Shown here: positions 7,191 to 55,335 of the stretch, one piece after another
How positions within the stretch are numbered: the first letter of the stretch is position 1
How the letters are laid out: the number at the start of each line of letters is the position of its first letter
Assembly: GCF_006517235.1 (NCBI RefSeq)
Contig: NZ_CP041188.1
Span: 1,798,001 to 1,862,000, forward strand
DNA: 64,000 nucleotides
Source: Pseudarthrobacter sp. NIBRBAC000502772
GTDB taxonomy: Bacteria; Actinomycetota; Actinomycetes; Actinomycetales; Micrococcaceae
Reading direction: 5' to 3'
Notes under the pieces: model-generated
What the model was told of the DNA's origin: nothing
Database searches by the model: none
The model's input: the letters and a program-made list of their open reading frames with translations, nothing else
Translations under genes and position numbers: made by a program

Positions 7191-7285
7191 CCTTCTCGTA
7201 GGAGCGCATCGCGGCGCATCGGGCCGTGGAGGTCGCCCAGCGACCGAAACGGCCCCTATGCGCTGTGTCTAAGCGACGGAGAAGG
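7191..7285 (+). repeat. 95-nt structured dispersed element, copy A
   Basis: One of three collinear 95-nt copies in the window (others 54931-55025 inverted and 55241-55335). It folds as a rod: outer stem (columns 1-7 with 89-95), invariant internal loops (left GGAGCGCATCGCGGCGCA, right GTGTCTAAGCGACG), an inner stem 25-29/68-72, stem 31-37/59-65, and an apical GGTCGC-CCA-GCGACC hairpin. It lies in the 374-bp gap between the convergent phoH and GNAT genes. No protein-coding gene is visible in that gap. Confidence 0.8.
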
Positions 7286-7340
7286 TCCGGGGGCTGACGG
7301 ACCCAGCTACGGGCCACTCTGTGAAGCGGCGCGGCGGGAG

Positions 7341-7360
7341 GTGTCTAAGCGACGGCGAAG
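7341..7360 (+). repeat. Partial right-end copy of the 95-nt element
   Basis: The 20-mer GTGTCTAAGCGACGGCGAAG is identical to the right end of copy C and nearly identical to that of copy A 76 bp upstream. The flanks (7285-7312 versus 7361-7386) also resemble each other (GGGGC..GGAC..ACCCAGC), which suggests a decayed tandem duplication of the element's right end. Confidence 0.65.
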
Positions 7361-7396
7361 TGCTCGGGGCGGACGAACCCAGCCGCCGCCCGGCAG

Positions 7397-8044
7397 TCAG
7401 CCGACGATGAGGAACTTAGCTGCCGCTTCGTGGCCTTCTACTTTGAGGGTCCAGTCGGGGCGTTTGAAGGTTGCGGGGGTGAGGCGCACTTTTTGGACTT
7501 CGACGGCCTTGCCGCCCCAGGATTGCCTGTTGGTGCCGTTGAGTTCATAGCCGAGGGAGCGGGACACGCCCAGGGAGGCGGCGTTCCAGGCGGCGGCTTC
7601 GGATTCGGCCACTTCGGCGCCGAGCCAGTCGAATGCGTAAAGCGCGACGGCGGCCCGCATCTCCGTGCCGAGCCCTTGGCCGTGGAGGGACTGCTTGAGC
7701 CAGGAGCCGGTGCTGACGGTCTTGAGGGTGGCAAAGTCCTTGGCACCGATGTCCTGGCAGCCGATGAATTCGTCCTGGTACCAGATGCCCAGGAGCAGGG
7801 TCCAGTCCTCGGGTGTGGCCTGGCCGCGGCAGCGCCAGTACCACTGCGCCATGTTGTGCCCTAATGCTTCCGGCGGCAGTTCCGTCCACGGAGTGCTGAA
7901 GGGGCTCCGGCCGGGTTCGTGGACTCCGCTGGCGGCCGCTGCAACTGCGGCGGGAATATCGGCGTCGGCGATGGGACGCAGTACCAGTCGGGGTGTGGTC
8001 AGCTCGAGGCCGAAGAGGGGCCAGATGGAAGTCAGCGCGGTCAT
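7397..8044 (-). CDS. GNAT family N-acetyltransferase
   Basis: A 215-residue acyl-CoA-dependent acetyltransferase of the RimJ/L-like group. The N-terminal LTTPRLVLRPIADADIPA, the substrate-side TLLLGIWYQDEFIGCQDIGA, and the acetyl-CoA loop SLHGQGLGTEMRAAVALYAF (R/Q-x-x-G-x-G/A) followed by AAAWNAASLGVSRSLGYE are typical. Substrate cannot be inferred. The C-terminal ~50 residues carry a basic extension after the fold. It is convergent with phoH across the hairpin-rich gap and transcribed away from the 8115-8915 gene, which lies 70 bp upstream on the same strand. Confidence 0.88.
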   Translation of the reverse strand: MTALTSIWPLFGLELTTPRLVLRPIADADIPAAVAAAASGVHEPGRSPFSTPWTELPPEALGHNMAQWYWRCRGQATPEDWTLLLGIWYQDEFIGCQDIGAKDFATLKTVSTGSWLKQSLHGQGLGTEMRAAVALYAFDWLGAEVAESEAAAWNAASLGVSRSLGYELNGTNRQSWGGKAVEVQKVRLTPATFKRPDWTLKVEGHEAAAKFLIVG

Positions 8045-8114
8045 CAGGGAAGCCTAGCCCAGGGCGGCCAAGGGCGTCTGTCAAACGCCGGTGATGCCTG
8101 GACCAGGACTGTGA

Positions 8115-8915
8115 TCAGGCGCGGATGTCCCAGCTGATGTGGCGGCGGACGTCCGTAAGGTTCATGGACTCGGCCACGAACAGGTCGTCCAGCATGTATT
8201 CGTCCACCGCGAGGATCCGGATCCAGTGCCCGTAATCCGGGGTTGCCGCTTCCATTGACTGGCTGGCCACGCAGACGCCGGTTTCCAGGTCGATCCGCAC
8301 CCGGTTGCTGCCGGGCAGGCAGAGCGGAGCGGCGGGATCCGCTGGATGGTAGGACGCCGTAGGCGTCACGGTTGCCTCCAGCGCCGGCCGGCCATCGTGA
8401 TCCACTCGGCGCACGGTATCGATCTCCACGGCGTTGGTGCCCGGGAACTCAATGGGGACCGGTGCGTTCCCGGCGAGTTCCACGGGATCGAGGGCAGCCG
8501 AGAAACGGCCGTTCCCGAAGCCCGGTTCGCCGTATGCTGCCTCCGGCCGGCGCCTGACCAGGCCGCCGTCGTCGTAAACGGGCGCTACGAGGTGGGGCGG
8601 CAGCAGCCAGGACTTCCGGGTGGCGCTGACGTACAACCCGTCCTTGGAATCGTTGATGCCGGTGGTGCTGTGGAGGACAAGCCGGTCGGCGGTTTCCAGG
8701 CGCAGCGCCCCGGGCCGGCGCAGCCAGGCGCGGACCAGGGGAGCGGACGGGTCGGGGACGTCGGAAAACGGTTCATCCCAGTATTCAAAGCGCAGTGACT
8801 GCCATTTCCAGGGGGAAGACCGGCAAAGGTTCCGGAACATGGTGCTCAGGTCTGCAGCCGCGGCGTTGCCCTCCGGATCCGGCCGGCGCCTGGTGTCCCA
8901 TGTCGACATATCCAC
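8115..8915 (-). CDS. Conserved protein of unknown function, possible LolA-like fold
   Basis: I do not recognise a named family. The 266-residue protein has no signal peptide or transmembrane helix. It is rich in W, R and P and reads like alternating strands (LVRAWLRRPGALRLETADRLVLHS, RVRIDLETGVCVASQSMEA), a pattern weakly like the LolA/RseB type of half-barrel; this is inference only. The start is ATG 8915, with ATG 8909 as an alternative. It is divergent from the prepilin peptidase gene with 53 bp between starts, and codon use matches the neighbours, so it is a real gene. Confidence 0.7.
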   Translation of the reverse strand: MDMSTWDTRRRPDPEGNAAAADLSTMFRNLCRSSPWKWQSLRFEYWDEPFSDVPDPSAPLVRAWLRRPGALRLETADRLVLHSTTGINDSKDGLYVSATRKSWLLPPHLVAPVYDDGGLVRRRPEAAYGEPGFGNGRFSAALDPVELAGNAPVPIEFPGTNAVEIDTVRRVDHDGRPALEATVTPTASYHPADPAAPLCLPGSNRVRIDLETGVCVASQSMEAATPDYGHWIRILAVDEYMLDDLFVAESMNLTDVRRHISWDIRA

Positions 8916-8968
8916 AGTTTACGCGTGGGCTCTGCGGTGCGGCGCGCGAATCCAGTAGCATCCGAGGG

Positions 8969-9526
8969 GTGATCCGACGACTCGATGGCCTGTGGGACGC
9001 CACCCCGCTGGCGTTCTGGCTGGTGCTGGCCGCATGTGTCTACTTTTTGGTTATGGCGGCCCGGCTGACGGTGATTGACGTTCGCCACCATCTGCTGCCC
9101 AACCGGATTGTCTTCCCGTCCTACGGTGTGGCGGGGGTTCTGTTGCTCGCGGCGGCCTTGGTGCACGTGATCGCCGGTCCTGCCGCGCTCGCGGGGTCAC
9201 CCGACGCTGCTGCCGAGCTAATGGGGATCCCGGCGCTTCGCATCCTGGCCGGGGGCGCGGTGCTGTGGGCCTTCTATTTTGTCCTGCGGATGGTTTACCC
9301 GCCCGGCATGGGCTTTGGCGACGTGAAGCTGGCCGGCGTACTGGGGATGTACCTTGGCTATCTCGGCTGGGGGCACGTTTTTGCCGGGACCTTCGCGGCT
9401 TTCCTGCTGGGGGGCCTCTGGTCCATGGCCCTGCTGGCGGCCCGCCGCGGCACCTTGAAGTCTTCCATCCCGTTCGGCCCGTTTATGCTCGCCGGCGCCG
9501 CTGCCGCCATGCTCCTGCCCGCTTAG
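8969..9526 (+). CDS. Prepilin peptidase, A24 type without methylase domain
   Basis: A 185-residue polytopic aspartic peptidase of the TadV/CpaA or short PilD type. The two active-site aspartates are in LTVIDVRHHLLPNRIVFP and GMGFGDVKLAGVLGMYLG (the GxGD motif). Six or so hydrophobic segments fill the rest, and the zinc-finger/methyltransferase domain of PilD is absent. The frame is open far upstream, but GTG 8969 is the last candidate start before the first helix; its Shine-Dalgarno is poor, so it may be leaderless. No pilus or Tad genes are nearby, so its substrates are encoded elsewhere. Confidence 0.85.
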   Translation: MIRRLDGLWDATPLAFWLVLAACVYFLVMAARLTVIDVRHHLLPNRIVFPSYGVAGVLLLAAALVHVIAGPAALAGSPDAAAELMGIPALRILAGGAVLWAFYFVLRMVYPPGMGFGDVKLAGVLGMYLGYLGWGHVFAGTFAAFLLGGLWSMALLAARRGTLKSSIPFGPFMLAGAAAAMLLPA

Positions 9527-9548
9527 CGCGAGAGGACACTTGCGGCCC
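9526..9548 (+). repeat. GGACACTTG hairpin-repeat half site
   Basis: GCGCGA-GAGGACACTTGCGGCCC begins on the last base of the prepilin peptidase stop codon. It matches the left arm of the copy at 16908-16930 and, with a few changes, the one at 16218-16240. The matching right arm is missing; a short TGCGG/CCGCA hairpin (9541-9557) replaces it. Confidence 0.6.
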
Positions 9549-9573
9549 AGGTCCGCAGGCGCGACGAAAACAA

Positions 9574-9611
9574 CAGGGGCGCCGCAACCCCCCAAGATCG
9601 CGGCGCCCCTG
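9574..9611. terminator. Intrinsic terminator between prepilin peptidase and MFS genes
   Basis: A perfect 12-bp stem, CAGGGGCGCCGC (9574-9585) with 9600-9611 and a 14-nt loop, is followed by a T-run at 9617-9621 on the plus strand. T-rich sequence on the minus strand (complement of GACGAAAACAA) makes it likely to serve both convergent genes. Confidence 0.85.
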
Positions 9612-9664
9612 CAGGCTTTTTACTGCGGCTTCCGCCGCTATGGCTTATAGCCTTGCGACGCCGT

Positions 9665-12051
<2,387 letters not shown>

Positions 12052-12091
12052 TTTATGATAGTGCAAACTTGGGCTTCTGCCCGCTTAAAGA

Positions 12092-12140
12092 ACGACGGCG
12101 GCCGCCCGCCTTCGTGATGAAGGTGGGCGGCCGCCGTCGT
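12092..12140 (-). terminator. Terminator of fumC
   Basis: A 22-bp stem with one G:U-type mismatch: arm 12092-12113 (ACGACGGCGGCCGCCCGCC...) pairs with 12119-12140 around a 5-nt loop. On the minus strand it is followed by TTCTTTAAG. It sits 8 bp beyond the fumC stop and upstream of tetR. Confidence 0.85.
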
Positions 12141-12147
12141 ACTTTAT

Positions 12148-13569
12148 TTACGCCTTGTGCGGCGGGCGCGTCATGGACATTACGTCCAGCGCGGTGTCCA
12201 ACTGCTCTTCGGTGACTTCGCCGCGCTCCAGGAAGCCCATGGCGACGACGGTCTCACGGATGGTGAGGCCCTCGGCCACGGCCTTCTTGGCGATCTTCGC
12301 GGCGTTCTCGTAGCCGATGTACTTGTTCAGCGGCGTCACGATCGAGGGGGAGGCCTCGGCCAGGAAGCGGGCGCGCTCCACGTTGGCGGTGATGCCGTCG
12401 ATCATCTTGTCCGTCATGACGCGGCTGGTGTTGGCCAGCAGGCGGATGGACTCGAGCAGGTTGGCGGCCATCACGGGGATGCCGACGTTGAGCTCGAAGG
12501 CGCCGTTGGTGCCGGACCAGGCGATGGCGGTGTCGTTGCCGATGACCTGGGCGCAGACCATGATGGACGCCTCGCAGATGACCGGGTTAACCTTGCCCGG
12601 CATGATCGAGGAGCCCGGCTGCAGGTCCGGGATGGCGATTTCGCCGAGGCCGGTGTTGGGGCCGGAGCCCATCCAGCGGAGGTCATTGTTGATCTTCATG
12701 AAGGAGATCGCGATGTTGCGCAGCTGGCTTGAGCCTTCGATGAGGCCGTCGCGGTTGGCCTGGGCCTCGAAGTGGTCGCGGGCCTCGGTCAGCGGCAGGC
12801 CGGTGTCCGTGGCGAGCAGTTCGATGACGCGTTCCGGGAAGCCGGCAGGGGTGTTGATGCCGGTGCCCACCGCGGTGCCGCCGAGCGGAACTTCGGCAAC
12901 ACGGGGGAGGGCGGCGTTGATGCGCTCGATGCCGTAGCGGACCTGGGCTGCGTAGCCGCCGAACTCCTGGCCGAGCGTCACCGGGGTGGCGTCCATGAGG
13001 TGGGTGCGGCCGGACTTGACGACGTCCTTGAACTCCACGGCCTTGCGCTCCAGCGACTCGGCCAGGTAGCCGAGCGCCGGGATGAGGTCGTTGATCAGGG
13101 CCGAGGTGGCGGCGACGTGGACCGAGGTGGGGAAGACGTCGTTGGAGGACTGTGAGGCGTTGACGTGGTCGTTCGGGTGGACAACTTTGTCACTCCCGGC
13201 GGCTTTGAGGGCACGCGTGGCCAGCTCGGCGAGGACCTCGTTCATGTTCATGTTCGAGGACGTGCCGGAACCGGTCTGGAAGACGTCGATGGGGAAGTCG
13301 CCGTCGTACTTGCCGGCAGCTACCTCATCGGCAGCCGCAGCGATCGCCTTGGCCAGCTCGCCGTCGAGCACCCCAAGTTCTGCGTTGGCCTGCGCGGCAG
13401 CCTTCTTGACCCGGGCCAGCGCCTCGATATGCGCGCGTTCCAGGGTCTTGCCGGAGATGGGGAAGTTTTCAACTGCACGCTGCGTCTGTGCACGGTACAG
13501 GGCGTTCACGGGGACGCGGACTTCGCCCATCGTGTCGTGTTCAATGCGGAATTCTTCAGTGGAAGTCAT
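12148..13569 (-). CDS. fumC: Fumarate hydratase class II
   Basis: Heat-stable, iron-independent fumarase of the TCA cycle (fumarate to L-malate), 473 residues, cytoplasmic homotetramer. Signature blocks are [37 protein letters not shown], the superfamily signature [12 protein letters not shown] (flexible substrate loop with catalytic Ser) and the C-terminal TRPPHKA. The start is ATG 13569. It is the third gene of a minus-strand run DUF4245-carbonic anhydrase-fumC, 76 bp after the carbonic anhydrase gene, and ends in its own terminator. Confidence 0.97.
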
Positions 13570-13645
13570 GGGGCTAGCTTAGGGCGATCGGGGGCCCGGA
13601 CTAAAACCGTGAACCGCATGCTACGGGCAATGATTCGGGCTGGGC

Positions 13646-14260
13646 CTAGACCTCGCCGATCCCGGAAACCACGTTGGCGTGGCCCTCGGCGAGGCTGTAG
13701 GAGAGGCCGATCACCGCGGCGCGGCCGTCCTCGATTGCGGCCGAAATCACACGGGAGCTGTCCACCAGGCGCTTGGATGTCTGCTTGACATGCTCCACCA
13801 CCATGTCGTTGATCTCGTGCTCGCCGTTCCGCATGGACGTCAGGACAGAAGGCGTGATGCGCTCCACCAGGTCCCGCATAAAGCCCACCGGCATGTTGCC
13901 GGTGTCCACTGCGGACTTGGTGGCACTGACGGCGCCGCAGCTGTCATGCCCCAGCACCACGATCAGGGGCACCCCCAGCACACTGATGCTGTACTCGAGG
14001 GAGCCCAGGACGGCGTCGTCAATCACCTGGCCGGCGGTGCGCACCACGAAGGCGTCCCCGAGGCCGAGGTCGAAGATAATCTCCGCAGCCAGCCGGGAGT
14101 CTGAACAGCCGAAGATCACGGCAAACGGGTGCTGGTTTTCCACCAGCGACGACCGGCGGGACGCGTCCTGGTTCGGGTGGGACGATTCGCCGGCAACAAA
14201 GCGTTCGTTGCCTTCGCGCATGCGGCGCCAGGCAAGGGCGGGGGTCAGGTAGGTAGCCAC
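13646..14260 (-). CDS. Beta-class carbonic anhydrase
   Basis: Zinc enzyme interconverting CO2 and bicarbonate, 204 residues. The zinc ligands are in FGCSDSRLAAE (Cys, with the Asp/Arg dyad) and VVLGHDSCGAV (His and Cys), with VRTAGQVIDD between them. This is the normal beta-CA arrangement and length. It starts 10 bp after the DUF4245 stop, so the two are co-transcribed, with fumC downstream; bicarbonate supply to anaplerosis would fit (inference). Sulfate transport is not involved, since it has no membrane domain. Confidence 0.93.
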   Translation of the reverse strand: MATYLTPALAWRRMREGNERFVAGESSHPNQDASRRSSLVENQHPFAVIFGCSDSRLAAEIIFDLGLGDAFVVRTAGQVIDDAVLGSLEYSISVLGVPLIVVLGHDSCGAVSATKSAVDTGNMPVGFMRDLVERITPSVLTSMRNGEHEINDMVVEHVKQTSKRLVDSSRVISAAIEDGRAAVIGLSYSLAEGHANVVSGIGEV

Positions 14261-14269
14261 GGGCTTACT

Positions 14270-14950
14270 TTACGGGGCAGTGCTGGCTGACGGTGAAACT
14301 GTGACGGCCGGGTTGGCGTCCATGGACTGCACGACGGCGGTGGCGAGTTCGGCGAATTCGTCCAGCTGGGCGCTTCCCGTCAGGACAACGGTGGTTCCGC
14401 GGTAATTCAGCACCATGCTCTTCTCGCCTTTGCCGGTGTCACGCAGCTCCCAGTCCTGTCCGCCCGCCGCACGCGTTCCCGTCACGGGAGCGCTCTTGGT
14501 CTGCTGGACGAGCCAGGTGGGGTTGGACTGGCGGGTCTGGACCAGGCCGATGAAGGACTCGTTCGGTGTCAGATAGCCAACTTCCCACGTGGGAACGCCG
14601 CTGCCGCTGCCCGACTCCCATCGGGCGTAGTTGGACCTGAACGACATGCCGGTGTCCGGCGTTACGGGTGTGAATCCCGCCACATCCGTGGCGTTCCGGG
14701 CCACCGCGCCGACGTCGATGTTCGGGCGGAATCCGTCGCTCTTGGGGAGGGGGTTCATCAGGATGATGGGCAGGAAGGCGGCGATGCTGACCACCAGGGC
14801 AACGATCATGCCGATCACGGAGGCATTGGCGCGCTTCGCCGCGGCGGCCGGGATTACTGGGCGGACAGGGGCTGCGTCGGCCGTGCCGGTGCGGTCGCCT
14901 TTAGCTCCGGAGTCGGAGGGGTCGGGCCCGGGGCTGGTTTTTTCCTGCAT
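14270..14950 (-). CDS. DUF4245 membrane-anchored protein
   Basis: A 226-residue protein with a disordered cytoplasmic N-terminus (~45 residues, rich in P, S, G, D), a transmembrane helix (VIGMIVALVVSIAAFLPIILM) and an extracytoplasmic beta-rich domain. The latter contains conserved W and G positions (ARWESGSGSGVPTWEVGYLTP, GGQDWELRDTGKGEKSMVLNY). This is the DUF4245 family, regularly divergent from glpX in actinobacteria. ATG 14950 follows GAGGGG at 8 nt; GTG 14959 and an ATG at 14977 are weaker alternatives. Function unknown. Confidence 0.85.
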   Translation of the reverse strand: MQEKTSPGPDPSDSGAKGDRTGTADAAPVRPVIPAAAAKRANASVIGMIVALVVSIAAFLPIILMNPLPKSDGFRPNIDVGAVARNATDVAGFTPVTPDTGMSFRSNYARWESGSGSGVPTWEVGYLTPNESFIGLVQTRQSNPTWLVQQTKSAPVTGTRAAGGQDWELRDTGKGEKSMVLNYRGTTVVLTGSAQLDEFAELATAVVQSMDANPAVTVSPSASTAP

Positions 14951-15154
14951 TTCACTCACCCCTCTATAGTCGCCCATGTTTACGCGCAACTCACAGTCGG
15001 GGGAGTGGGGGAGGCTCAAGGTCCATGTTGCAGGACTGCGTCATGCCACACCCCGGAGGCGCTGCCACGACTATGATCAGTACCAGAGGAATCACCGCAC
15101 CGGCTGAATCCGGCCGAGCGGGTCCAATGATCGCCACTCGAAGAAGAGGTTCAC

Positions 15155-16192
15155 GTGTCACCAGCGCCTATGACCCAGCAGTACTCCACGATTTCCCCCT
15201 CCCTGGCTGTGGGCATCGACGAGCCAGACCGCAACCTCGCCCTTGAACTTGTCCGCGTCACCGAGGCCGCGGCCATCGCCGGCGGCCACTGGGTTGGCTT
15301 CGGCGACAAGAACAAAGCCGACGGCGCGGCCGTTGACGCCATGCGCTCCTTCCTTCACACGGTCCACTTCAACGGCGTTGTGGTCATCGGCGAAGGCGAA
15401 AAAGACGAAGCCCCCATGCTGTTCAACGGCGAACATGTTGGCGACGGCACCGGTCCTGAGTGCGACGTTGCCGTGGACCCGATCGACGGCACCCGCCTGA
15501 CGGCCCTGGGCATCAACAACGCCCTGGCAGTCCTCGCCGTGGCGGAGCGCGGCTCCATGTTCGATCCGTCCGCCGTGTTCTACATGGAGAAGCTCGTCAC
15601 CGGCCCGGAAGCCGCCGACATGGTGGACCTCCGCCTGCCGGTCAAGCAGAACCTGCACCTGATCGCCAAGGCGAAGGGCGTGAAGGTCAACCAGCTCAAC
15701 GTCATGATCCTTGACCGCGACCGCCACCGCCCCCTGGTCGAAGAGATCCGCGAAGCCGGTGCGCGCACCAAGTTCATCATGGACGGCGACGTTGCCGGCG
15801 CCATTGCCGCAGCCCGCTCCGGCACCGGCGTCGACGCCCTCATGGGCATCGGCGGCACGCCGGAAGGCATCGTTGCAGCCTGCGCCATCAAGTCGCTCGG
15901 CGGCGTTATCCAGGGCCGGCTGTGGCCCACCAGCGACGACGAGAAGCAGAAGGCGATCGACGCCGGCCACGACCTGGACCGCGTGCTGTCCACCAATGAC
16001 CTCGTGTCCAGCGACAACTGCTACTTCGCGGCCACGGGCATCACCGACGGCGACCTCCTCAAGGGCGTCCGCTACTCCAAGGACAAGGTCCTCACGCAGT
16101 CCATCGTGATGCGTTCCAAGTCCGGCACCATCCGCTTTGTCGACGGCGAGCACCAGGCCAGCAAGTGGGAAGGCTACGCCCGCAAGAACTAG
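15155..16192 (+). CDS. glpX: Class II fructose-1,6-bisphosphatase GlpX
   Basis: Gluconeogenic phosphatase (fructose-1,6-bisphosphate to fructose-6-phosphate), 345 residues, Li-sensitive phosphatase fold. Active-site blocks are GEGEKDEAPM, DVAVDPIDGTRLTA (DPIDGT metal site), FIMDGDVAGAI and GIGGTPEGIVAACAIK. The start is GTG 15155 with AAGAGG at ~7 nt; ATG 15170 is an alternative. It is divergent from the DUF4245-carbonic anhydrase-fumC unit with 204 bp between, as in mycobacteria. It ends before a hairpin shared with the downstream pseudogene. Confidence 0.96.
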   Translation: MSPAPMTQQYSTISPSLAVGIDEPDRNLALELVRVTEAAAIAGGHWVGFGDKNKADGAAVDAMRSFLHTVHFNGVVVIGEGEKDEAPMLFNGEHVGDGTGPECDVAVDPIDGTRLTALGINNALAVLAVAERGSMFDPSAVFYMEKLVTGPEAADMVDLRLPVKQNLHLIAKAKGVKVNQLNVMILDRDRHRPLVEEIREAGARTKFIMDGDVAGAIAAARSGTGVDALMGIGGTPEGIVAACAIKSLGGVIQGRLWPTSDDEKQKAIDAGHDLDRVLSTNDLVSSDNCYFAATGITDGDLLKGVRYSKDKVLTQSIVMRSKSGTIRFVDGEHQASKWEGYARKN

Positions 16193-16217
16193 CAGGTTCT
16201 TCACCCCGCGTACTTCT

Positions 16218-16272
16218 GCGTGAACGGATACTTGAGGCCCAGGAACTGTGGGCCTCAAGTGTCCGTTCGCGC
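16218..16272. terminator. GGACACTTG-type hairpin repeat, intact copy
   Basis: Arms 16218-16240 and 16250-16272 (core GAACGGACACTTGAGGCCC) form a 22-23 bp stem with two G:U-type pairs and a 9-nt loop. It can terminate glpX from one side. On the other side its right arm encodes the last codons (A-R-T-D-T) and stop of the DUF559-like frame. Confidence 0.75.
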
Positions 16273-17929: not shown

Positions 17930-17932
17930 GGC

Positions 17933-43380: not shown

Positions 43381-43393
43381 ACGGATGGTCCTC

Positions 43394-45949: not shown

Positions 45950-47349
45950 CGTCCCACCTCCGCTCCGCGGCGTACGTCTGCCGCTGCCGTGGCCGGCGCA
46001 GCGCCACCCTGGTCGAAGTGCGTCCAGGCGTCCGGGACCGGAACCGAGGTTGGCACCGCCACTGCCCGCCAGCCGCCCCGGCGGAGGGCCTCCAAGGAGT
46101 CCTCGGAATCGGCGGGCCTCTCGGAAACGATGATGGCGAACGCATTCGCGCCATAACCCGCCGCCGGAGCGAGGGCTCTGGCCTCGCTCGGAGAGATCCT
46201 GCCGAGCACGGCAATAAGGGGCCCCCGCATCCGGTGGGCGGAGAGCTTGTCCATCAGGTGATCGTCGAAAACGGCCGGTCCGGCATCCTGGCCACCGTGG
46301 TCCCGGGCAGCGTGGTGCGGACCGGACAGCTGGATGGCGGCGAGGCTTTCGGCGATCGACTGGAGCCCGGACACTCCGCTGAACTCTTCCGCTTCCGGTT
46401 CCGGTGCGGACGGGGAGCGGAGGAACGCGGGTTCGCCGCGGGGGTCCAGGAGGCGGAGGGCGTAGTTCCGCTCCGACAGGTGCGTGCAGATGGAGATCGC
46501 GGCCACCACGGCCCACTCGAAAGTGCCGCTGGTGATCATCTCGTGGCCGTCGACGGCCGCAGTGCCCCCGAAACCGGAGCCGTGCCCGCCGGAAAATGCC
46601 GCGAACCGTTGGTCCAGGATGATGGTGGCCTCCGGCGTTGTGACGGACTCCTCCTGGCGCACCATCAGGGCGCCGTGGTGCGCGGTGGCCGCCCAGTGCA
46701 CCCGGCGCATGGGATCGCCCGGGCGGTATTCGCGGGTCATGACGTCATCGTCGCTGGGGTTGGCGCGGGTACGGGTTGCTGTGATGCCGTCGTTGCCGCG
46801 GGCTCCCGCGAGGCCCGTCACGGGAAGCTCGACGGCGGCGGGCGTCACGGTGAGTGTGTCGCCGTCGTCAATTGACCGCCGGTGCAGGGACAACCCGAAC
46901 GGATCCGTGAACTCGGCTGTTACCGGGCCGATCAGGTACTGTCCGCGTTTGGTGGAGCGCAAGTGGTATTCGTACCTGCTGGTCCCGCCCCTGGCTGAGC
47001 GGGCGGGGAAATGGAAGGCCGGGGACTCGCCGAACCGTGGCGGCAGCCGTTCCTCCATGATCGCCCGGCCGCCCCCGTAACCGGTCCGCGCCACGGCGAG
47101 CCGCACTGTGGTGGCGGCGGAGGTCTCCACCGGGGACGGGTTGAACTCGCGGTAAACCTGGAACCGGGGCTTGAGGAGCCTGATCCCGGCCAGCGAAACC
47201 AGGGGAAGGACGATGAGCAGGACACTCAGGCTCAGCAGATCCCGCCGCCCCATGATCTGCGCAGACAACAGGCAGACGGCGCCGGCGGCCAGGAGCCCCC
47301 AGCCACGCTGGCTGAACAGGTGCCGGGGTAGTCGGTCACGCAGCGCCAT
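45946..47349 (-). CDS. DUF58 domain-containing protein
   Basis: A 467-residue protein with two N-terminal helices (~15-60), a beta-rich region and the DUF58 core with VMTREYRPGDPMRRVHWAATAHHGALMVRQEE, the family's signature. The rest is a vWA-like domain probably used as a partner of the MoxR ATPase. The stop overlaps the downstream GTG by 4 bp, and the upstream moxR stop is 13 bp away, so the three genes form a tight operon. Confidence 0.9.
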   Translation of the reverse strand: MALRDRLPRHLFSQRGWGLLAAGAVCLLSAQIMGRRDLLSLSVLLIVLPLVSLAGIRLLKPRFQVYREFNPSPVETSAATTVRLAVARTGYGGGRAIMEERLPPRFGESPAFHFPARSARGGTSRYEYHLRSTKRGQYLIGPVTAEFTDPFGLSLHRRSIDDGDTLTVTPAAVELPVTGLAGARGNDGITATRTRANPSDDDVMTREYRPGDPMRRVHWAATAHHGALMVRQEESVTTPEATIILDQRFAAFSGGHGSGFGGTAAVDGHEMITSGTFEWAVVAAISICTHLSERNYALRLLDPRGEPAFLRSPSAPEPEAEEFSGVSGLQSIAESLAAIQLSGPHHAARDHGGQDAGPAVFDDHLMDKLSAHRMRGPLIAVLGRISPSEARALAPAAGYGANAFAIIVSERPADSEDSLEALRRGGWRAVAVPTSVPVPDAWTHFDQGGAAPATAAADVRRGAEVGR

Positions 47350-47362
47350 GTGCCGGCCCTGC

Positions 47363-48472
47363 CTAGTGGTTCCGGCGTAGTCCGGCCGGCGGGGCCGATG
47401 ACCGGGCCGGGTTGTTCACCGGGTCCTGGTTCACGGGGAGCCGGGAGAGGATGCCCCGGATGACGCTGTGCGGGGTCTCACCGGCGCCGGCCGCCTTCCG
47501 GTCCAGGATGATCCGGTGGGCCAGTACGGATTCCGCAACGCCGACGACGTCGTCTGGCAGCACAAAATCACGGCCGTCCAGCGCCGCCGTGGCCTTCGCG
47601 GCCCGGAGCAGTTGGAGCATGGAGCGTGGGCTGGCGCCCAGCCGGAGCAGGGGGCTTTCGCGCGTTGCGCGGCCTACTGAGACGGTGTATTCCTTGACTG
47701 CCTGGGAGACGTAAACCTGTTGCACCGTGGCGATCATGGCTGCGACGTCCGCCGCGGTGACCACAGCGGCGACGTTGGCCAACGGGGAGGTTGCCTGATG
47801 GGTCTCCAGCATTTCGATTTCGGAGTCCTTGTCCGGATAGCCCATGGAAATCCGCGCCATAAAGCGGTCGCGCTGGGCCTCGGGGAGTGGATAGGTGCCT
47901 TCCATCTCGATCGGGTTCTGGGTTGCCACCACCATGAACGGTTCGTCGAGTTTGTACGAGTCCCCGTCCACGGTCACCTGGTGTTCCTCCATACACTCCA
48001 GGAGGGCGGATTGGGTCTTGGCGGACGCGCGGTTGATTTCATCGCCAATAACAATGTTGGCGAAGACGGCACCCGGGCGGAACTCGAACAGCCGCGACGC
48101 CTGGTTATAGATGGACACGCCGGTCACGTCCGAAGGCAGCAGATCAGGAGTGAACTGAATGCGGCTGACCGTGCAGTCAATGCTCCGGGCGAGGGTCTTG
48201 GCCAGGAGGGTCTTGCCCACACCTGGCACGTCTTCCAGGAGCAGATGGCCCTGGGCCAGCAACACCGTCAGGGCGAGCCTGGCCGCATCCGACTTTCCGT
48301 CAATGACGGTGTTGATCGAGGCCAGGATCCGCTGGCTGGCCGCGTGGAATGAGTCCGCGTCCATGGCTGCTGTCTTGTAACCGTTGAGATGGCCCACCTG
48401 CTCCGTCACGGGGGTGAAGTTCCGGCTGGCAGGGGTTACCTCGTTGACGGCGGTGCGGCGGTGGGAGTCCAT
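47363..48472 (-). CDS. MoxR family AAA+ ATPase
   Basis: A 369-residue AAA+ chaperone-like ATPase. Motifs are LLEDVPGVGKTLLAKTLARS (Walker A), VIGDEINRASAKTQSALLECMEEHQVTV (Walker B with sensor helix), VATQNPIEMEGTYPLPEAQRDRFM (sensor 1 and the arginine finger region). MoxR proteins work with vWA or DUF58 partners in maturation or envelope functions. The frame is open to 48571, but ATG 48472 has AAAGG at 8 nt and matches family N-termini better. First gene of the operon. Confidence 0.93.
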   Translation of the reverse strand: MDSHRRTAVNEVTPASRNFTPVTEQVGHLNGYKTAAMDADSFHAASQRILASINTVIDGKSDAARLALTVLLAQGHLLLEDVPGVGKTLLAKTLARSIDCTVSRIQFTPDLLPSDVTGVSIYNQASRLFEFRPGAVFANIVIGDEINRASAKTQSALLECMEEHQVTVDGDSYKLDEPFMVVATQNPIEMEGTYPLPEAQRDRFMARISMGYPDKDSEIEMLETHQATSPLANVAAVVTAADVAAMIATVQQVYVSQAVKEYTVSVGRATRESPLLRLGASPRSMLQLLRAAKATAALDGRDFVLPDDVVGVAESVLAHRIILDRKAAGAGETPHSVIRGILSRLPVNQDPVNNPARSSAPPAGLRRNH

Positions 48473-48636
48473 CTGCAACCTTTCAGTCCGGGGATCACCC
48501 GGAACGGGACAGCAGGCCTGCCTTCGCCCGGCGGTGGGCGTTCGCATCTGTTCGTACCAGCCTACTAACACAACTGCCCTGGCTGACAGAGTGTTCCGGG
48601 AATTCTGCCGCGATCCGCCGCCGCTAGGCTTGAGGG

Positions 48637-49539
48637 ATGTGCAATTCGCTGATCCCCGCCGCTTACCGTGTCGCCGGGGCGGACCCTGCAGACGCCGGCC
48701 GGAAGGCGCGGCAGGACTATCCGCCGGCGCCGGAGCCGCTGCCGGTCCCCGTGATGGACAACCATACGCACCTGGATTTCCCCGATGGCGAGAGCCCGGT
48801 GGGCATCGCCGCGGCGTTGGATGCAGCCCAGGCCGTCGGAGTGCAGGGGGCCGTCCAGGTGGGCTGCGACCTGGAGTCCTCCCGGTTCACGGTCCGCGCC
48901 GTTGACCTGGACAGCAGGTTGCTGGGGGCAGTGGCATTGCACCCCAACGACGCCCCGGACTATGCCAGGCGCGGCGAGTTGGAGGATGCGCTGGCGGAGA
49001 TTGAGCAACTGGCCGCCCACCCCCGGATCCGGGCTATCGGCGAGACCGGCCTTGATTTCTTCCGCACCGAAGGGGAGGGCCTGGCCCACCAGCGCTATTC
49101 GTTCCGGCGGCATATCGATATTGCCAAGCGCCTGGACCTGACGCTGCAGATCCATGACCGCGACGCGCACGACGACGTCGTGCAGGTCCTGCGCGAGGAG
49201 GGGGCTCCCGAGCGGGTGGTGTTTCATTGCTTCTCGGGTGATGAGGCGCTCGCCAGGATCTGCAATGACGCGGGCTGGAACATGTCCTTTGCCGGCACGC
49301 TGACCTTTAAGAATGCGGCTAACCTCCGCGCCGCGCTGGCAGTGGCAGACCCGGACCTGGTGCTGGTGGAAACGGATGCCCCGTTCCTGACTCCGCATCC
49401 GCACCGCGGCCGTCCCAACGCCAGTTATGTGGTGCCGTACACCGTCCGCGCCATGGCCGAATTGACAGGAACTGACCTCGCCGAGCTCTGCACCCGGATT
49501 AGCGAAAATACCGTGCGGGCGTACGGATCGTGGGACTGA
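48637..49539 (+). CDS. tatD: TatD family metal-dependent hydrolase (DNase)
   Basis: A 300-residue TIM-barrel metallohydrolase. Motifs are MDNHTHLDFPD (HxHxD), AIGETGLDFF (Glu), LQIHDRDAHDDV, VVFHCFSGDEAL (His) and VLVETDAPFLTPHPHRG (Asp). TatD enzymes act as 3'-5' exonucleases on single-stranded DNA/RNA. A 37-residue N-terminal tail precedes the barrel. It is followed by rpfB and rsmA, the order seen in M. tuberculosis. A gap of 220 bp to rpfB holds only a short palindrome and promoter-like A/T-rich segments. Confidence 0.92.
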   Translation: MCNSLIPAAYRVAGADPADAGRKARQDYPPAPEPLPVPVMDNHTHLDFPDGESPVGIAAALDAAQAVGVQGAVQVGCDLESSRFTVRAVDLDSRLLGAVALHPNDAPDYARRGELEDALAEIEQLAAHPRIRAIGETGLDFFRTEGEGLAHQRYSFRRHIDIAKRLDLTLQIHDRDAHDDVVQVLREEGAPERVVFHCFSGDEALARICNDAGWNMSFAGTLTFKNAANLRAALAVADPDLVLVETDAPFLTPHPHRGRPNASYVVPYTVRAMAELTGTDLAELCTRISENTVRAYGSWD

Positions 49540-49566
49540 TCTGGGCCTCGTCACATTGCTTGGTTC

Positions 49567-49581
49567 ACATACCTCGTATGT
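49567..49581. promoter_or_regulatory. Palindrome upstream of rpfB
   Basis: ACATAC-CTC-GTATGT (49567-49581) is a perfect 6-bp inverted repeat, followed by TATAAC (49599-49604), a possible -10 box. It may be an operator of the resuscitation factor gene; the regulator is unknown. Confidence 0.4.
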
Positions 49582-49759
49582 AAATTTCTTGGCCGCTTTA
49601 TAACGCTACGGTTACAGTGGAGAACTATTAGCCGGGGTCGGGGAAGGCCTTCGGATAATTTCACTTCATTCGCAGCAGGATCAGGCTGGGCTTTGATGCC
49701 CTCTGCCTGCCGCGCGGAGTGTGGCGGCGCAACGGTGCCCGGAGCTTGTCCCCAGGGTC

Positions 49760-50971
49760 ATGCGCCGGCTATTTCACTGCGTTTTTCCCCGTGCCCGGAT
49801 GGATCTAAAGTTACGGGCAATCGTGGTCAAGCTCTTCACAACGGACGGCAAGTTCAGTTTTATCAAGGTGGGCACCCAACTGGTGGTGCTGTGTGCGCTG
49901 GTGTTGGGCCTCGTGGCCTTCGTCGGAAATAACAAAACCGTTACCCTCAACGTCGACGGAAAAGTGACTTCGGTCCAGTCCTTCGGCGGCACCGTGGGCC
50001 AGGTCGTAAAAAGCGCCAACGTAGAACTGAAGCCGGCTGACCGCGTCTCGCCCTCGGCGGACGCCAAAGTGGAGAACGGCACCGTGATCAACGTCAACAT
50101 GGCCAAGGCCGTGAAGGTCAGCCTGGACGGTTCCGAAAAGACCATCAACACCACGGCGCCGGATGTTGCGGGCCTCGTCACCGAACTGGGAGTGGCCAGC
50201 TCCTCCTCCGTTTCCGTCCCGAAGGACGCCCAGCTCGCCGTGGCCGGATCGTTTGTCTCCATCTCCACACCCAAGACCGTCAGCATCGTTGCCGACGGCA
50301 AGGCCTCCACGGCCACCACCACCGCGGGGACCGTCGCCCAGGTGCTGGAGGACGCCGGCATCACCCTCGGCGTCGACGACCGTACTTCCCAGCCGGGCAA
50401 CGCGCACGTGGTTAACAACATGGTGGTTAAGGTCTCCCGGGTGGATACCAGCCAGACCGCGGCCACCACTGAAGATGTTGCTTTCGACAGCATGACCACT
50501 GAGAGCGCTGAGCTTCTCAAGGGCGAGAAAGAGGTCACCCAGGCCGGCGTGGCCGGCAAAGTGGAGAAGAGCTTCAAGCTGGTGATGGTTGACGGCCGTG
50601 AAGCCTCGCGGACGCTGGTCTCCGAAACTGTTTCCGTCCAGCCCGTGACGGAAAAAGTCACAGTAGGCACCAAGGCAAAGCCCGCAGCCGCCGGAACGAA
50701 CACCGGCGCCTCCGCCCCGGCCATGATGAACGAGGCCATGTGGGACAAGATCGCCCAGTGTGAGTCCACCGGAAACTGGTCCATCAACTCGGGCAACGGC
50801 TACTACGGCGGCCTCCAGTTCGACATCCAGACCTGGATCGGCTCCGGCGGCGGCGCCTACGCCCCCAACGCCAGCCTCGCCACCAAGGCACAGCAGATCG
50901 ACATCGCCAACCGCGTGTACGCACAGCGTGGCCTGCAGCCGTGGGGCTGTGGCTGGGCCGCTACAAGCTAG
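49760..50971 (+). CDS. rpfB: Resuscitation-promoting factor, RpfB type
   Basis: A 403-residue cell-wall lytic transglycosylase that stimulates growth of dormant cells. Order: basic start, membrane anchor (FIKVGTQLVVLCALVLGLVAFVG, ~35-57), three DUF348 repeats (KTVTLNVDGKVTSVQSFGGTVGQVV and two later), a G5 domain (~225-305), a short linker, then the Rpf domain MWDKIAQCESTGNWSINSGNGYYGGLQFD. The last holds the catalytic Glu in QCES and ends at PWGCGWAATS with the disulfide partner. The start is uncertain: ATG 49760, ATG 49799 and a GTG at 49721 are all possible, and none has a strong ribosome site. Confidence 0.93.
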   Translation: MRRLFHCVFPRARMDLKLRAIVVKLFTTDGKFSFIKVGTQLVVLCALVLGLVAFVGNNKTVTLNVDGKVTSVQSFGGTVGQVVKSANVELKPADRVSPSADAKVENGTVINVNMAKAVKVSLDGSEKTINTTAPDVAGLVTELGVASSSSVSVPKDAQLAVAGSFVSISTPKTVSIVADGKASTATTTAGTVAQVLEDAGITLGVDDRTSQPGNAHVVNNMVVKVSRVDTSQTAATTEDVAFDSMTTESAELLKGEKEVTQAGVAGKVEKSFKLVMVDGREASRTLVSETVSVQPVTEKVTVGTKAKPAAAGTNTGASAPAMMNEAMWDKIAQCESTGNWSINSGNGYYGGLQFDIQTWIGSGGGAYAPNASLATKAQQIDIANRVYAQRGLQPWGCGWAATS

Positions 50972-51030
50972 GCACCAATGAGCACCTGCACTGGCGGCAG
51001 CTGACCACAGCCACCAACCAAGCAGAAGAC

Positions 51031-51066
51031 AGCGGCCGGCCCCGGATTGTCCCGGGGCCGGCCGCT
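51031..51066 (+). terminator. Terminator of rpfB
   Basis: A perfect 15-bp GC stem, AGCGGCCGGCCCCGG (51031-51045) with 51052-51066 and a 6-nt loop, lies 60 bp after the stop. It has no T-run. Confidence 0.8.
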
Positions 51067-51155
51067 GCCGTTAAGCGGAAACACGCACCGCGTAACACGC
51101 ATGATCCGCGCGGAAAGCGGATGGCCCGTCACTGCGGCCGGGATAGGATGCCTAG

Positions 51156-52028
51156 GTGACTGAACCGACTGCCGCCGCGCCCGCACCCCTCTTCGGTGCT
51201 TCCGACATACGCCGGCTGGCGGAAGAAATCGGTATCCGGCCCACCAAGACACTGGGACAGAACTTCGTCATCGATGGCAACACCATCCGCCGGATCGTCT
51301 CCGTTGCCAACATTGGGCCAACCGAGACGGTGCTGGAAGTCGGGCCCGGCCTTGGTTCCCTCACGCTGGGCCTGCTGGATGCCGCGCAGACGGTGGTCGC
51401 CGTCGAAATTGATCCGGTCCTGGCGGCAAAGCTGCCGGAAACCGTGAAAGCATGGCGGCCGGAGGCGGCGGGCGCTTTCCACCTGGTCCAGGCGGACGCC
51501 ATGAAGGTCACATCGCTTCCCGTTGAGCCCACCGCCATTGTGGCGAACCTGCCCTACAACGTGGCGGTGCCGGTGGTCCTGCACCTGCTCCAGCATTTCC
51601 CCAGCCTGCAGCACGGTCTGGTGATGGTCCAGGACGAGGTGGCTGACCGGCTGGCCGCAGGGCCAGGATCAAAGACCTACGGGGTGCCCTCGGTCAAGGC
51701 GGCCTGGTACAGCAGCATGCGCAAGGCCGGGGTGATCGGCATGAACGTCTTCTGGCCTGCGCCGAAGATCCAATCCGGGCTCGTGGCCTTCACCCGGCGG
51801 GAACCGCCTGAAACAACCGCCACCCGTGAGCAGGTGTTCGCCGTGATCGACGCTGCCTTCGCCCAGCGCCGGAAGACGCTGAGGGCCGCCCTGGCTGGCT
51901 GGGCCGGCGGCGCAGCCGAGGCCGAGCGCTGCCTCATCGCCGCAGGAGTGGCCCCATCGGCCCGGGGCGAAGTCATCGACATCCACGCCTTTGCACGGAT
52001 TGCCGAAGCCCGCGAGGCCGGGTCGTGA
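51156..52028 (+). CDS. rsmA: 16S rRNA dimethyladenosine transferase RsmA/KsgA
   Basis: SAM-dependent dimethylation of the two adjacent adenines in helix 45 of 16S rRNA, 290 residues. Motifs are [37 protein letters not shown] (SAM loop), [15 protein letters not shown] (NLPY catalytic) and the C-terminal [13 protein letters not shown]. The GTG 51156 start lies close behind TAGGAT-like sequence (51143-51148) and may be leaderless. The stop overlaps the ispE GTG by 4 bp. Confidence 0.95.
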
Positions 52029-52987
52029 AGGCAGCCGCCGGGAAGTTTCCCGCACGGACGGTCCGTGTGAAGGCGCCCGGCAAGGTTAATGTTTCCCTGG
52101 ACGTGGGACCCTTGCGCGCTGACGGCTACCATTCAGTTGCCAGCGTGTACCTGGCCGTTTCCCTCTATGAGGAAGTGGCTGCCACCAGCACGGAGACGCC
52201 GGGGATCACCGTCAGCATCAGCCCTGACAGCACCCTGGACCTGGACGGCGTGCATATTCCGCTGGACGAGAAGAACCTGGCCTACAAGGCCGCAGCCATC
52301 ATGGCCGATGTCTCCGAGCATTCCACCGGCGTACACCTTGAAATCACCAAGCGGGTCCCCGTGGCCGGGGGCATGGGCGGCGGCTCGGCCGATGCCGCAG
52401 CCACCCTGCTGGCCTGCGACGCGCTCTGGAACAGCGGGCTGTCGCGGGATGAGTTGGCCCATCTGGCCGCCGAATTGGGTGCCGACGTCCCGTTCTCCCT
52501 CCTCGGCGGAACCGCCGTCGGGCTTGGCGTTGGCGACGACCTTTCGCCGGCACTGGCCAAAGCCCAAACGGACTGGGTCCTCGTGGCGGCGGACTACGGG
52601 CTGCCCACCCCCGAAGTCTTCCGCACCCTGGACCGGCTCCGGGAGGCAGAAGGACTGGACGTTGCCGAGCCCACGGCCGTGGATCCCAAGATCCTGCAGG
52701 CGCTGCGGAGCGGGGACGCCGATGCCCTGAGCCGGGTCCTGGTGAACGATCTGCAGCGGGCCTCCATTGAACTTTCCCCCGCGCTCCGCGATACGCTGGG
52801 ACGAGGTGAAGCGCTCGGCGCCCTGGCCGGAATCGTATCCGGTTCCGGACCCACCGTGGCGCTGTTGACCCACAATCCTGCCGCCGCCGAAAACCTGGCG
52901 GAGGACCTGCGGCACTACGGGCTGACGGCATTCCCTGTCCACGGGCCCGTGCATGGCGCGCGCATCATCTCCGATACTCTCCTTTAA
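52025..52987 (+). CDS. ispE: 4-(cytidine 5'-diphospho)-2-C-methyl-D-erythritol kinase
   Basis: GHMP kinase of the MEP isoprenoid pathway, 320 residues. Blocks are [24 protein letters not shown] (N-terminal GHMP element), [22 protein letters not shown] (ATP loop) and [14 protein letters not shown] (C-terminal). The GTG start overlaps the rsmA stop, so the genes are coupled. With the cis-prenyltransferase at 4.5 kb it shows the organism uses the MEP route. Confidence 0.95.
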
Positions 52988-53025
52988 GAGCCCCCTTCCG
53001 TACTGAGCAGCAGAAAGCAGTCCCC

Positions 53026-54852
53026 TTGGCACACCTTCTTGGCGGCGAAAACCTTACGGTTTCGTACGCAACGCGCACCGTCCTGGACGGCATCACCCTC
53101 GGACTCGAGGAAGGTGACAGGATCGGCATGGTGGGCCGGAACGGCGACGGCAAGTCCACGCTGATGCGCCTCCTGGCCTTGCGCTCCACCCCGGACTCGG
53201 GCCGCGTGACCAAGCGCAGTGAAGTCAACATCGGCTACCTGGACCAGAGCGACGTGCTCGACGGCGACCTCACAGTGGGCGCTGCGATCGTCGGCGACCA
53301 GGCCGACTATGAATGGGCCCGCAATCCCCAGATCCGCGAAGTCATGGGCGGCCTGGTGTCCGACGTCGACTGGCATGCGAACGTCCACGCCCTCTCCGGC
53401 GGTCAGAAGCGGCGGGTGGCGCTGGCCAAGCTGCTGATCGAGGACCATGACGTCATCATGCTCGACGAACCGACCAACCACCTCGACGTCGAAGGAGTCG
53501 CCTGGCTGTCGCGGCACCTGAAGACCCGGTGGCGGGCAAACCAGGGCGCCTTCCTGGTGGTCACCCACGACCGCTGGTTCCTGGACGAAGTCTGCACCAA
53601 GACCTGGGAAATCCACGACGGCATCATGGACCCGTTCGACGGCGGCTACGCGGCCTACGTGCTGGCCCGTGCCGAGCGTGACCGGGCGGCGAATGTTATG
53701 GAAGGCAAGCGCCAGATGCTCGTGAAAAAGGAGCTCGCCTGGCTTCGCCGCGGCGCTCCGGCCCGCACGGCCAAGCCGAAATTCCGCATCGAGGCCGCCA
53801 ACGCCCTCATCGCCGACGTGCCCGAGCCGCGTGACTCCACAGCCCTGAGCAAGATGGCCACCGCCCGGCTCGGCAAGGACGTCCTGGACCTCGAGAACGT
53901 CTCACTGGACTTCCTCGGCGGCGACCCCGGACAGAAACTCTTCGACAACATCACACTGCGGCTTGCCCCCGGCGAGCGGCTTGGCCTGGTGGGCGTCAAC
54001 GGCGCCGGCAAGACCACCCTGCTGAAACTCCTCAACGGCGAGATTGAGCCGTCATCCGGCAAGGTCAAGCGCGGCAAGACCGTGGTCACCGCCGTGCTGA
54101 CCCAGGAGGTCAAAGAGCTCGACGACGTCTCGGACCTGCGCGTGATCGAAGTCATCGAGCGCGAAAAGCGGTCCTTTAACGTGGGCGGCAAGGAATTCAC
54201 GGCGGGCCAGCTTGTGGAGCAGCTCGGCTTCACCAACGAAAAGCAGTGGACCCCGGTCAGGGATCTGTCCGGTGGTGAGCGCCGGCGCCTCCAGCTCCTG
54301 CGCCTGCTGGTGGGGGAGCCGAACGTGCTGATGCTCGATGAGCCCACCAACGACCTCGACACCGACACCCTCGCCGCCGTCGAAGACGTCCTTGACGGCT
54401 GGCCTGGCACGCTCGTTGTGGTCAGCCACGACCGTTACCTGCTGGAACGCGTGACAGACCACCAGATGGCGCTGCTTGGTGACGGCAAGATCCGCGCCCT
54501 GCCGCGCGGCGTGGACCAGTATCTGGAGCTCCGCGAATCCGCCCTGGCCGGCTCCACGATCACCGGCGGCGGCAACCCCGTCACCGGTCCGAGCGGCAGC
54601 TCCGCCCCCGCAGCCTCCGGTTCCTCCGAAGCCGAAAAGCGCGACGCCCGGAAGGCCAAGAACCGGATCGAGCGCCAGCTGGGCAAACTGGAGCAGCAGG
54701 AAAAGAAGATTCACGACCAAATGGTCAAGAGCACCGCAGCATCCGACTTCGACGCCCTCGCCGACCAGAACAAAAAACTCAAGGACCTCGCCACCGACCG
54801 CGAAGCCCTGGAGCTCGAATGGATGGAAGCCCTGGAAGTCCTTGGCGAATAA
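53026..54852 (+). CDS. ABC-F family ATPase
   Basis: A 608-residue duplicated ABC protein without membrane domains, acting on ribosomes (translation factor or antibiotic protection type). Cassette 1 has GMVGRNGDGKSTLMRLL, LSGGQKRRVALAKLL, VIMLDEPTNHLD. Cassette 2 has GVNGAGKTTLLKLLN, LSGGERRRLQLLRLL, VLMLDEPTNDLD. An interdomain linker and a C-terminal coiled coil (~540-605, RIERQLGKLEQQEKKIHDQ) place it near Uup/EttA-like proteins. The start is TTG 53026, 38 bp after ispE. It is followed by the 527-bp repeat region. Confidence 0.92.
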   Translation: MAHLLGGENLTVSYATRTVLDGITLGLEEGDRIGMVGRNGDGKSTLMRLLALRSTPDSGRVTKRSEVNIGYLDQSDVLDGDLTVGAAIVGDQADYEWARNPQIREVMGGLVSDVDWHANVHALSGGQKRRVALAKLLIEDHDVIMLDEPTNHLDVEGVAWLSRHLKTRWRANQGAFLVVTHDRWFLDEVCTKTWEIHDGIMDPFDGGYAAYVLARAERDRAANVMEGKRQMLVKKELAWLRRGAPARTAKPKFRIEAANALIADVPEPRDSTALSKMATARLGKDVLDLENVSLDFLGGDPGQKLFDNITLRLAPGERLGLVGVNGAGKTTLLKLLNGEIEPSSGKVKRGKTVVTAVLTQEVKELDDVSDLRVIEVIEREKRSFNVGGKEFTAGQLVEQLGFTNEKQWTPVRDLSGGERRRLQLLRLLVGEPNVLMLDEPTNDLDTDTLAAVEDVLDGWPGTLVVVSHDRYLLERVTDHQMALLGDGKIRALPRGVDQYLELRESALAGSTITGGGNPVTGPSGSSAPAASGSSEAEKRDARKAKNRIERQLGKLEQQEKKIHDQMVKSTAASDFDALADQNKKLKDLATDREALELEWMEALEVLGE

Positions 54853-54930
54853 CCCTCCGTTGGTGCGGCGGCGGCTTGGGTGCCGGAGCCGGCCCTTCGG
54901 CGTCCGCCCGACTTGGATGCCACAGCTGGC

Positions 54931-55025
54931 CCTTCCGCGTCGCTTAGACACGTCGCAAAGGGGGCATTCCGGTCGCTGAGCGACCTCCATGCCCCGTTGC
55001 GCCGCGATGCGCTCCTTTCGGAAGG
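54931..55025 (-). repeat. 95-nt structured dispersed element, copy B (inverted)
   Basis: The reverse complement aligns without gaps to copies A and C. It starts CCTTCCGAAAGGAGCGCATC and ends ..ACGCGGAAGG. Compensatory changes relative to A include outer columns 6:90 (C-G), 7:89 (G-C), inner 29:68 (A-T), 34:62 (G-C) and 36:60 (A-T). It begins 78 bp after the ABC-F stop, in the 54853-55379 gap, which contains no recognisable gene. Confidence 0.8.
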
Positions 55026-55240
55026 ACCAGCTCCGGCGCGCCGATGTCACCTTCCCGAAGGATCACCTCCCGACAACGAACGCCACCTCACACAAAGGAG
55101 CAGCAGGCGACTCGCGTGGAACCTTCGGCAGGTGGGTGAGGGGGCGGGTGCGGCGGCGGCAGATCCCGTCCTGCATCTTAGGCACTGCATATGCGGCGGC
55201 ACCTCGCGAAGGGAACGCTAGTCAATAGCGGTGCGGGGGG

Positions 55241-55335
55241 CCTTCGCGTAGGAGCGCATCGCGGCGCATCGTGGCGTGAAGGTCGCCCAGCGACCGCAGC
55301 GACACCTATGCGCTGTGTCTAAGCGACGGCGAAGG
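55241..55335 (+). repeat. 95-nt structured dispersed element, copy C
   Basis: Same element as copy A in direct orientation, and inverted with respect to copy B 215 bp upstream. Outer column 6:90 is G-C here and 32:64 is T-A; pair 34:62 is mismatched. It lies 44 bp before the convergent tetR stop. The 215 bp between B and C is GC-rich and shows no open frame of note. Confidence 0.8.

Follow-up and report, generated by a model that had tools for sequence, protein, structure and literature searches.

A 64,000-nucleotide stretch of the genome of Pseudarthrobacter sp. NIBRBAC000502772 (contig NZ_CP041188.1, positions 1,798,001 to 1,862,000; hereafter, the window) carries three copies of an intergenic palindromic element that are members of a lineage-restricted family of ~120-nt elements in Arthrobacter-type bacteria. 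These elements have covarying stems and a fold that belongs to one strand, often occur as outward-facing inverted twins, and lie mostly between convergent genes. We propose, with a probability of roughly 0.4 for the function that we infer, that they are a new family resembling repetitive extragenic palindromes (REP) and bacterial interspersed mosaic elements (BIME) and that they act as strand-specific RNA folds at transcript ends. An initial annotation of the window had placed 95-nt copies at 7191–7285 (plus strand), 54931–55025 (minus) and 55241–55335 (plus); these coordinates and the gap-free alignment of the copies were borne out, and re-reading column pairs 6:90 and 7:89 in the three copies returned the same letters.

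The stems covary, and selection on the fold is strongly supported. In an alignment made with MAFFT without structural information, 32 of 39 pairs changed on both sides, giving 352 both-side-change cells compared with 125 in shuffles, a value that none of 500 shuffles reached; the covariation score, counted without R-scape, was 0.489 against 0.07–0.11 for slid partners. Compensation was also seen within single sites. At one site, the ABC-F side provided 20 orthologous copies (20 of 22 copies selected by loop type, with two extra same-site copies left out), in which 26 of 48 pairs changed on both sides (91 cells vs. 28), and among 14 copies on the TetR side, 13 of them distinct, 12 of 48 did so (29 cells vs. 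11). The shuffles ignore kinship, and the slid controls and within-site results are the stronger evidence. Covariation beyond both shuffles and slid partners is what a structured RNA is expected to display. The view that compensating stem changes reflect selection on a fold, first put forward from the three window copies, is thus strongly supported by the family-wide and within-site covariation together with the strand polarity described below; further copies exist, and they covary.

The fold belongs to one strand. Across the 14 outer-stem pairs nearest the core in 115 elements, with the register fixed but the element set still taken from the same parser, we counted 1247 Watson-Crick, 209 G-T, 19 A-C and 135 other cells; G-T was in excess in 96 elements, A-C in three, and the two were equal in 16. 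G-T cells make up 13% of the inner stem, a share that is usual for RNA stems, and from this we take RNA as the proposed acting form. All of 113 elements had better predicted RNA folding on this strand, by a mean of 15 kcal/mol, part of which stems from the fixed core. Control windows (118) located 400 nt from 60 elements had no strand bias (mean 0.5, 52 negative).

Two covariance models defined the distribution of the family. The first, built from four copies, was searched against 197 genomes from the bacterial family and matched 19, four of which, all from one genus, carry a different hairpin sharing the apical part. The second, built from 48 diverse copies, matched 50 of 61 genomes of the element's own genus, with 1–9 matches each. 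At the level of the order it matched 17 of 396 genomes (seven from the own genus, four from other genera of the family, and six with weak matches from other families) and at the level of the phylum 2 of 396, both from the own genus; these large searches were run with stricter filters, by which weak matches were lost. A pattern scan of named genomes returned at least 118 stretches, and 76 of the 80 listed came from Arthrobacter, Pseudarthrobacter or Paenarthrobacter, the other four being probable chance matches in unrelated taxa. Consistent with the earlier remark that no named family was known, Rfam gave no match to the element: in the window nothing but tRNA reached the gathering score, and in L001–L005, searched with E values up to 5, nothing but tRNA came near it. 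A literature search, with subscription journals outside its scope, found no paper on this element. Elsewhere, hairpins from another genus of the family (L086, L087, L089, L090) have another stem and loop with nearly the same apical part (GGTCGCNCAGCGACC), and those from another family of the order (L218–L221, L223, L232) have long near-perfect stems with a common apical GGTCGCGCAGCGACC.

The anatomy of the element was read from 116 parses; dropping one false parse (L124 at 2122) left 115 elements, 113 of which had full-width sequence. The outer stem is 19–21 bp long in 86 of 116 parses and leads to a 3-nt loop, GTA or AAA in 83 of 116, that faces a single G. A 5-bp stem follows, which in 80 of 116 reads GGAGC/GCGAC and contains a tandem G-A mismatch and in most others is Watson-Crick (GTCGC, GGCGC, GTCCC etc.). 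Beyond it, GCAT faces TCTAA in 112 of 116 parses, partly by construction of the search pattern, as the parser required GCNT, and TC followed by T/G/A, then A, then A/C/G. The inner arm begins with CGC/GTG, including a G-T pair, in 111 of 113 elements, is short in some copies, and is accompanied by an apparent extra arm in L063, L064, L070, L075 and L078. Most copies end in the apical hairpin GGTCGC-NCA-GCGACC, whose constancy is partly a matter of search choice, some copies having been fetched by this motif.

All three window copies adopt the common fold (z = −7.5, −6.1 and −3.2 for copies A, B and C, respectively, against 200 shuffles), as does a fourth copy elsewhere in the genome (z = −5.0); the genome has six places in all, four strong and two weaker. 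Pairing runs beyond the 95-nt ends in each copy, to the limits given below. Of the internal loops initially described as invariant, GCAT and TCTAA are indeed fixed and unpaired, as is the 3x1 loop, but the remaining letters assigned to loops form helix: in the window copies GGAGC and GCGAC pair over 5 bp, with a tandem G-A mismatch where other copies have Watson-Crick pairs, and CGC and GTG form a helix that includes one G-T pair. The elements and their neighbors in the window are as follows.

7180–7296, plus strand: copy A, full element, between the PhoH and GNAT genes, with an outer stem of 18 bp; inner parts are the 3x1 loop, 5-bp stem, GCAT/TCTAA loop, inner arm and apical GGTCGC-CCA-GCGACC.
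7333–7375, plus strand: orphan right end, read from the sequence as a second, truncated element adjoining copy A.
54919–55037, minus strand: copy B, full element, left-hand half of an inverted pair, 66 nt past the ABC-F gene.
55038–55227, no strand: 190-bp spacer between copies B and C.
55228–55348, plus strand: copy C, full element, right-hand half of that pair, with 31 nt between it and the end of the TetR-type gene.
5514–7022, plus strand: PhoH-like protein with PIN domain (Pfam PF02562, PF13638), left neighbor of A.
7397–8044, minus strand: GNAT acetyltransferase (Pfam PF13302), right neighbor of A, convergent.
53026–54852, plus strand: ATPase with ABC domains, of ABC-F type by its extension domain (Pfam PF00005, PF12848), left neighbor of B.
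55380–56180, minus strand: TetR-family regulator (Pfam PF00440), right neighbor of C, convergent.

The letters of the orphan right end resemble the right half of a second copy at the same site in L125. A plus-strand tRNA gene at 56157–56228 overlaps the TetR-type gene, as called, at its first bases, so the true start of the latter is probably further in. A second palindromic family is present at 7044–7122, 21 nt after the PhoH stop codon, whose perfect arms, GAACGCCGGGTCA/TGACCCGGCGTTC, are specific to the locus and enclose a core CCTTCCTCTGCGTGCT-GCTCGTTCCTCGC-...-GACGCACGCTGCCGGAAGG; close relatives follow PhoH in L128, L195, L200, L202 and L204, and its tip GCGAGGAACGAGC is found again in L085 and L088, short elements that carry it in the inner arm.

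Copies B and C form an inverted pair, an arrangement that recurs across the genus. Among the matches listed (164 from the genus and 14 from the family and order searches), 44 pairs of neighbors within 800 bp were counted in 31 genomes, many of these pairs being orthologous and not independent, and 43 had the order minus-plus, one plus-plus and none plus-minus. The spacer of the 43 pairs ranges from a small overlap to ~620 bp; some pairs have near-zero spacing, leaving little room for promoters inside them, and a search for a fixed flanking promoter or box yielded only weak shared words. The statement that all copies lie between convergent genes holds for the three window copies but not for the family: using a simple gene caller, a convergent context was found for 89 of 113 parsed elements, compared to 47 of 251 other gene pairs in 25 stretches, counts in which orthologous copies are not independent and some gene calls are wrong (e.g., L129). 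The neighboring genes vary (PhoH/GNAT, ABC-F/TetR, SpoU methylase/CN-hydrolase, SIP, Crp-type, DHDPS, urocanase and others), and some sites are common to several species, with 42 parsed copies at PhoH/GNAT and 38 at ABC-F/TetR. The DHDPS/ROK site, which is tandem, has the minus-plus order too.

A role as RNA at transcript ends is proposed because any transcript that crosses a twin meets a copy in the wrong sense and then a well-folded one. Whichever side it comes from, such an RNA would contain one copy as its reverse complement, followed by the other copy in the sense that folds well: a hairpin of ~48 bp whose two fixed internal loops may be readable by a protein or nuclease. The folded copy would cap or halt the transcript and set its 3′ end, and convergent genes would thereby be kept from running far into each other. 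Between co-directional genes, such as the DHDPS-family gene and the ROK kinase gene, the element might separate or stabilize two cistrons, as REP elements do. The recognized module would be the core with ~8 bp of stem, the outer stem being locus-specific and, at the PhoH site, predicted to have an arm in common with a terminator-like hairpin.

The element resembles an intrinsic terminator in being a strong GC hairpin shortly after stop codons that sometimes has an arm in common with a terminator-like hairpin, but it differs in its conserved interior, in a fold that fits one strand and in having no T-run. Five or more T in the 8 nt after the hairpin occurred in 0 of 113 elements on the element strand and in 4 of 113 on the other, which rules out a standard intrinsic terminator and is the first of several observations that weigh against the proposed role at transcript ends. 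The element is dispensable, since 11 of 61 genus genomes, one of them 68% complete, had no match. Several sites are tandem, with ROK co-directional after the DHDPS-family gene. At the PhoH site ten other copies share the stem end (CTC) of copy A, and seven of them are oriented opposite to it; L079 is likewise reversed relative to its two relatives. Such reversals within one site do not fit easily with a fixed strand role. DNA folding parameters favor the same strand too (111 of 113), so single-stranded DNA is also a possible acting form, and in divergent variants from another family of the order the same strand folded better in 4 of 6, with no clear bias.

The main rival, which we regard as possible but less likely than not, is a mobile doublet akin to REPINs or miniature inverted-repeat transposable elements, with single-stranded DNA hairpins that some transposase would recognize, in which the inverted twin would be the mobile form and the singles decayed remnants. 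Such mobility would account for the inverted intergenic doublets expected of a REPIN-RAYT system (43 of 44 listed pairs), for patchy presence across genomes, for opposite orientations at one site, for partial end duplications and for the strand bias of DNA folding. It would also fit the distribution of similarity within the element: inner arms can be at least 90% alike at different loci, whereas outer stems have a mean identity of 0.35, equal to the shuffled value of 0.35 (20 pairs; single outer-stem values 0.21–0.58, half of the pairs involving L140). Copies from the same genome are slightly more alike than others (0.784 vs. 0.764, p = 0.026, from pairs that are not independent). The initial annotation had left the choice between structured RNA and palindromic mobile element, and had suggested a RAYT/Y1 transposase as a possible companion; selection on the fold is strongly supported, and like inner arms do occur at unrelated sites, but the transposase link fails in this genus. 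The Y1 family (PF01797) was found in 1 of 61 genus genomes and not in the element's own genome, and RAYT/Y1 is not supported as the mover in the genus; the single positive genome, G226, does carry the element (L121). The high copy number expected of a REPIN-RAYT system is likewise absent, the 50 positive genomes having just 1–9 matches each. Plasmid and phage records gave no blastn match with copy A, and viral contigs no match to the exact pattern, which misses deviating copies. An autonomous parent was sought in one of three wide minus-plus pairs (L272), which, judged by its open reading frames, holds an IS3-like insertion.

The history of individual sites also bears on mobility. Many copies stand at orthologous sites with compensating changes, which suggests use in place and argues against a purely mobile doublet. 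Two close relatives at one site, L080 and L082, lie in surrounding sequence that is 94% identical over 9.2 kb, but their outer arms differ at 5 of 20 bases per arm (15 of 20 in common), with pairing kept except for one C-A mismatch; inner bases differ at 25 of 56 (31 of 56 in common), and loop and short-stem bases are equal at 22 of 23. At the PhoH site, the stem arm adjoining PhoH doubles as the 3′ arm of a terminator-like hairpin, which some sister species have without the element, and L201 retains only an element relic; the empty sites have the hairpin and no clear target-site duplication. Other remodeling was seen as tandem repeats of the right end with some flank (L059, ~5565–5685; L272, ~5730–5810) and, in one genome (L123), as repeated CCCGACGCCCGGTCACCTATGTCGGGTTTTT units on both sides of its PhoH-site element. 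Downstream of an FGGY kinase in L358, the element core is inset in an array of another palindromic repeat (CCCGTTGGTCGAGCTTGTCGAGACC), which by eye also pairs with tandem G-A mismatches.

A DNA-level site, as proposed for BIMEs, is improbable. The element would then be a cruciform or a binding site for a protein such as gyrase or a nucleoid protein that relieves supercoils between convergent genes, in keeping with its convergent location, long inverted repeats and twin arrangement, but a double-stranded role gives no reason for an 11:1 bias of G-T over A-C.

It is quite improbable that the element is a ribozyme that cleaves itself or an RNA that senses a ligand, with competition between its outer stem and a terminator-like hairpin downstream, even though its internal loops are fixed while its stems are free, and stem and hairpin exclude each other at the PhoH site and in L083/L084, where an arm is likewise common to both structures. 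The competing hairpin was clear only in these two settings among up to six examples per site, so that we do not consider it general, and the elements lie mostly after genes and have no resemblance to Rfam families. Nor could pre-existing arms be traced at the empty L083 site: four relatives (L359–L362) had neither the element nor similar arms within 400 nt, and an older hairpin was not shown there. Neutral upkeep, in which template-switch (quasi-palindrome) copying keeps the arms complementary and leaves a fold without function, is very improbable, for although it would suit the fast compensated change between L080 and L082, arm-to-arm copying alone predicts neither the G-T bias nor their unchanged loops.

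Among known repeats, the closest parallels are with REP-type elements. According to a published account (PMC1525189), REP, BIME and REPIN sequences are palindromic and extragenic, form inverted doublets and often lie between convergent genes. The element shares all of these traits, but it differs in its 1–9 matches per genome, in the near absence of a Y1 transposase and in its locus-specific outer stems. At ~120 nt with several fixed loops it is also longer than a REP of ~20–40 nt, and its loop, which in 55 of 116 parses is GTA with G next to it, is reminiscent of the REP tetranucleotide. The bcr1 repeat of the Bacillus cereus group and ERIC are interspersed intergenic repeats of 120–160 nt with an RNA-like fold; their host lineages are others, and we know of no such twin arrangement in either. 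Integron attC sites fold on one strand just after genes, with variable stems around small fixed boxes, as the element does, but by eye its fixed letters include no RYYYAAC/GTTRRRY pair, the attC boxes, and no cassette array was found at the element sites examined.

A role at transcript ends and a mobile doublet are not exclusive readings. We tentatively suggest, as a possibility short of an even chance, a new class of transcript-boundary device in which an RNA core, containing the two fixed internal loops, sits on a stem that is specific to each locus and at times held in common with a resident terminator-like hairpin, outward-facing twins ensure that RNAs arriving from both directions finish in a well-folded copy, and the core moves from locus to locus leaving its outer stem behind. 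Biologists have long asked what short palindromes between bacterial genes do. In this family, few copies per genome, strong strand polarity, compensation at the same site and element-free sister species make RNA, DNA and mobility models testable locus by locus.

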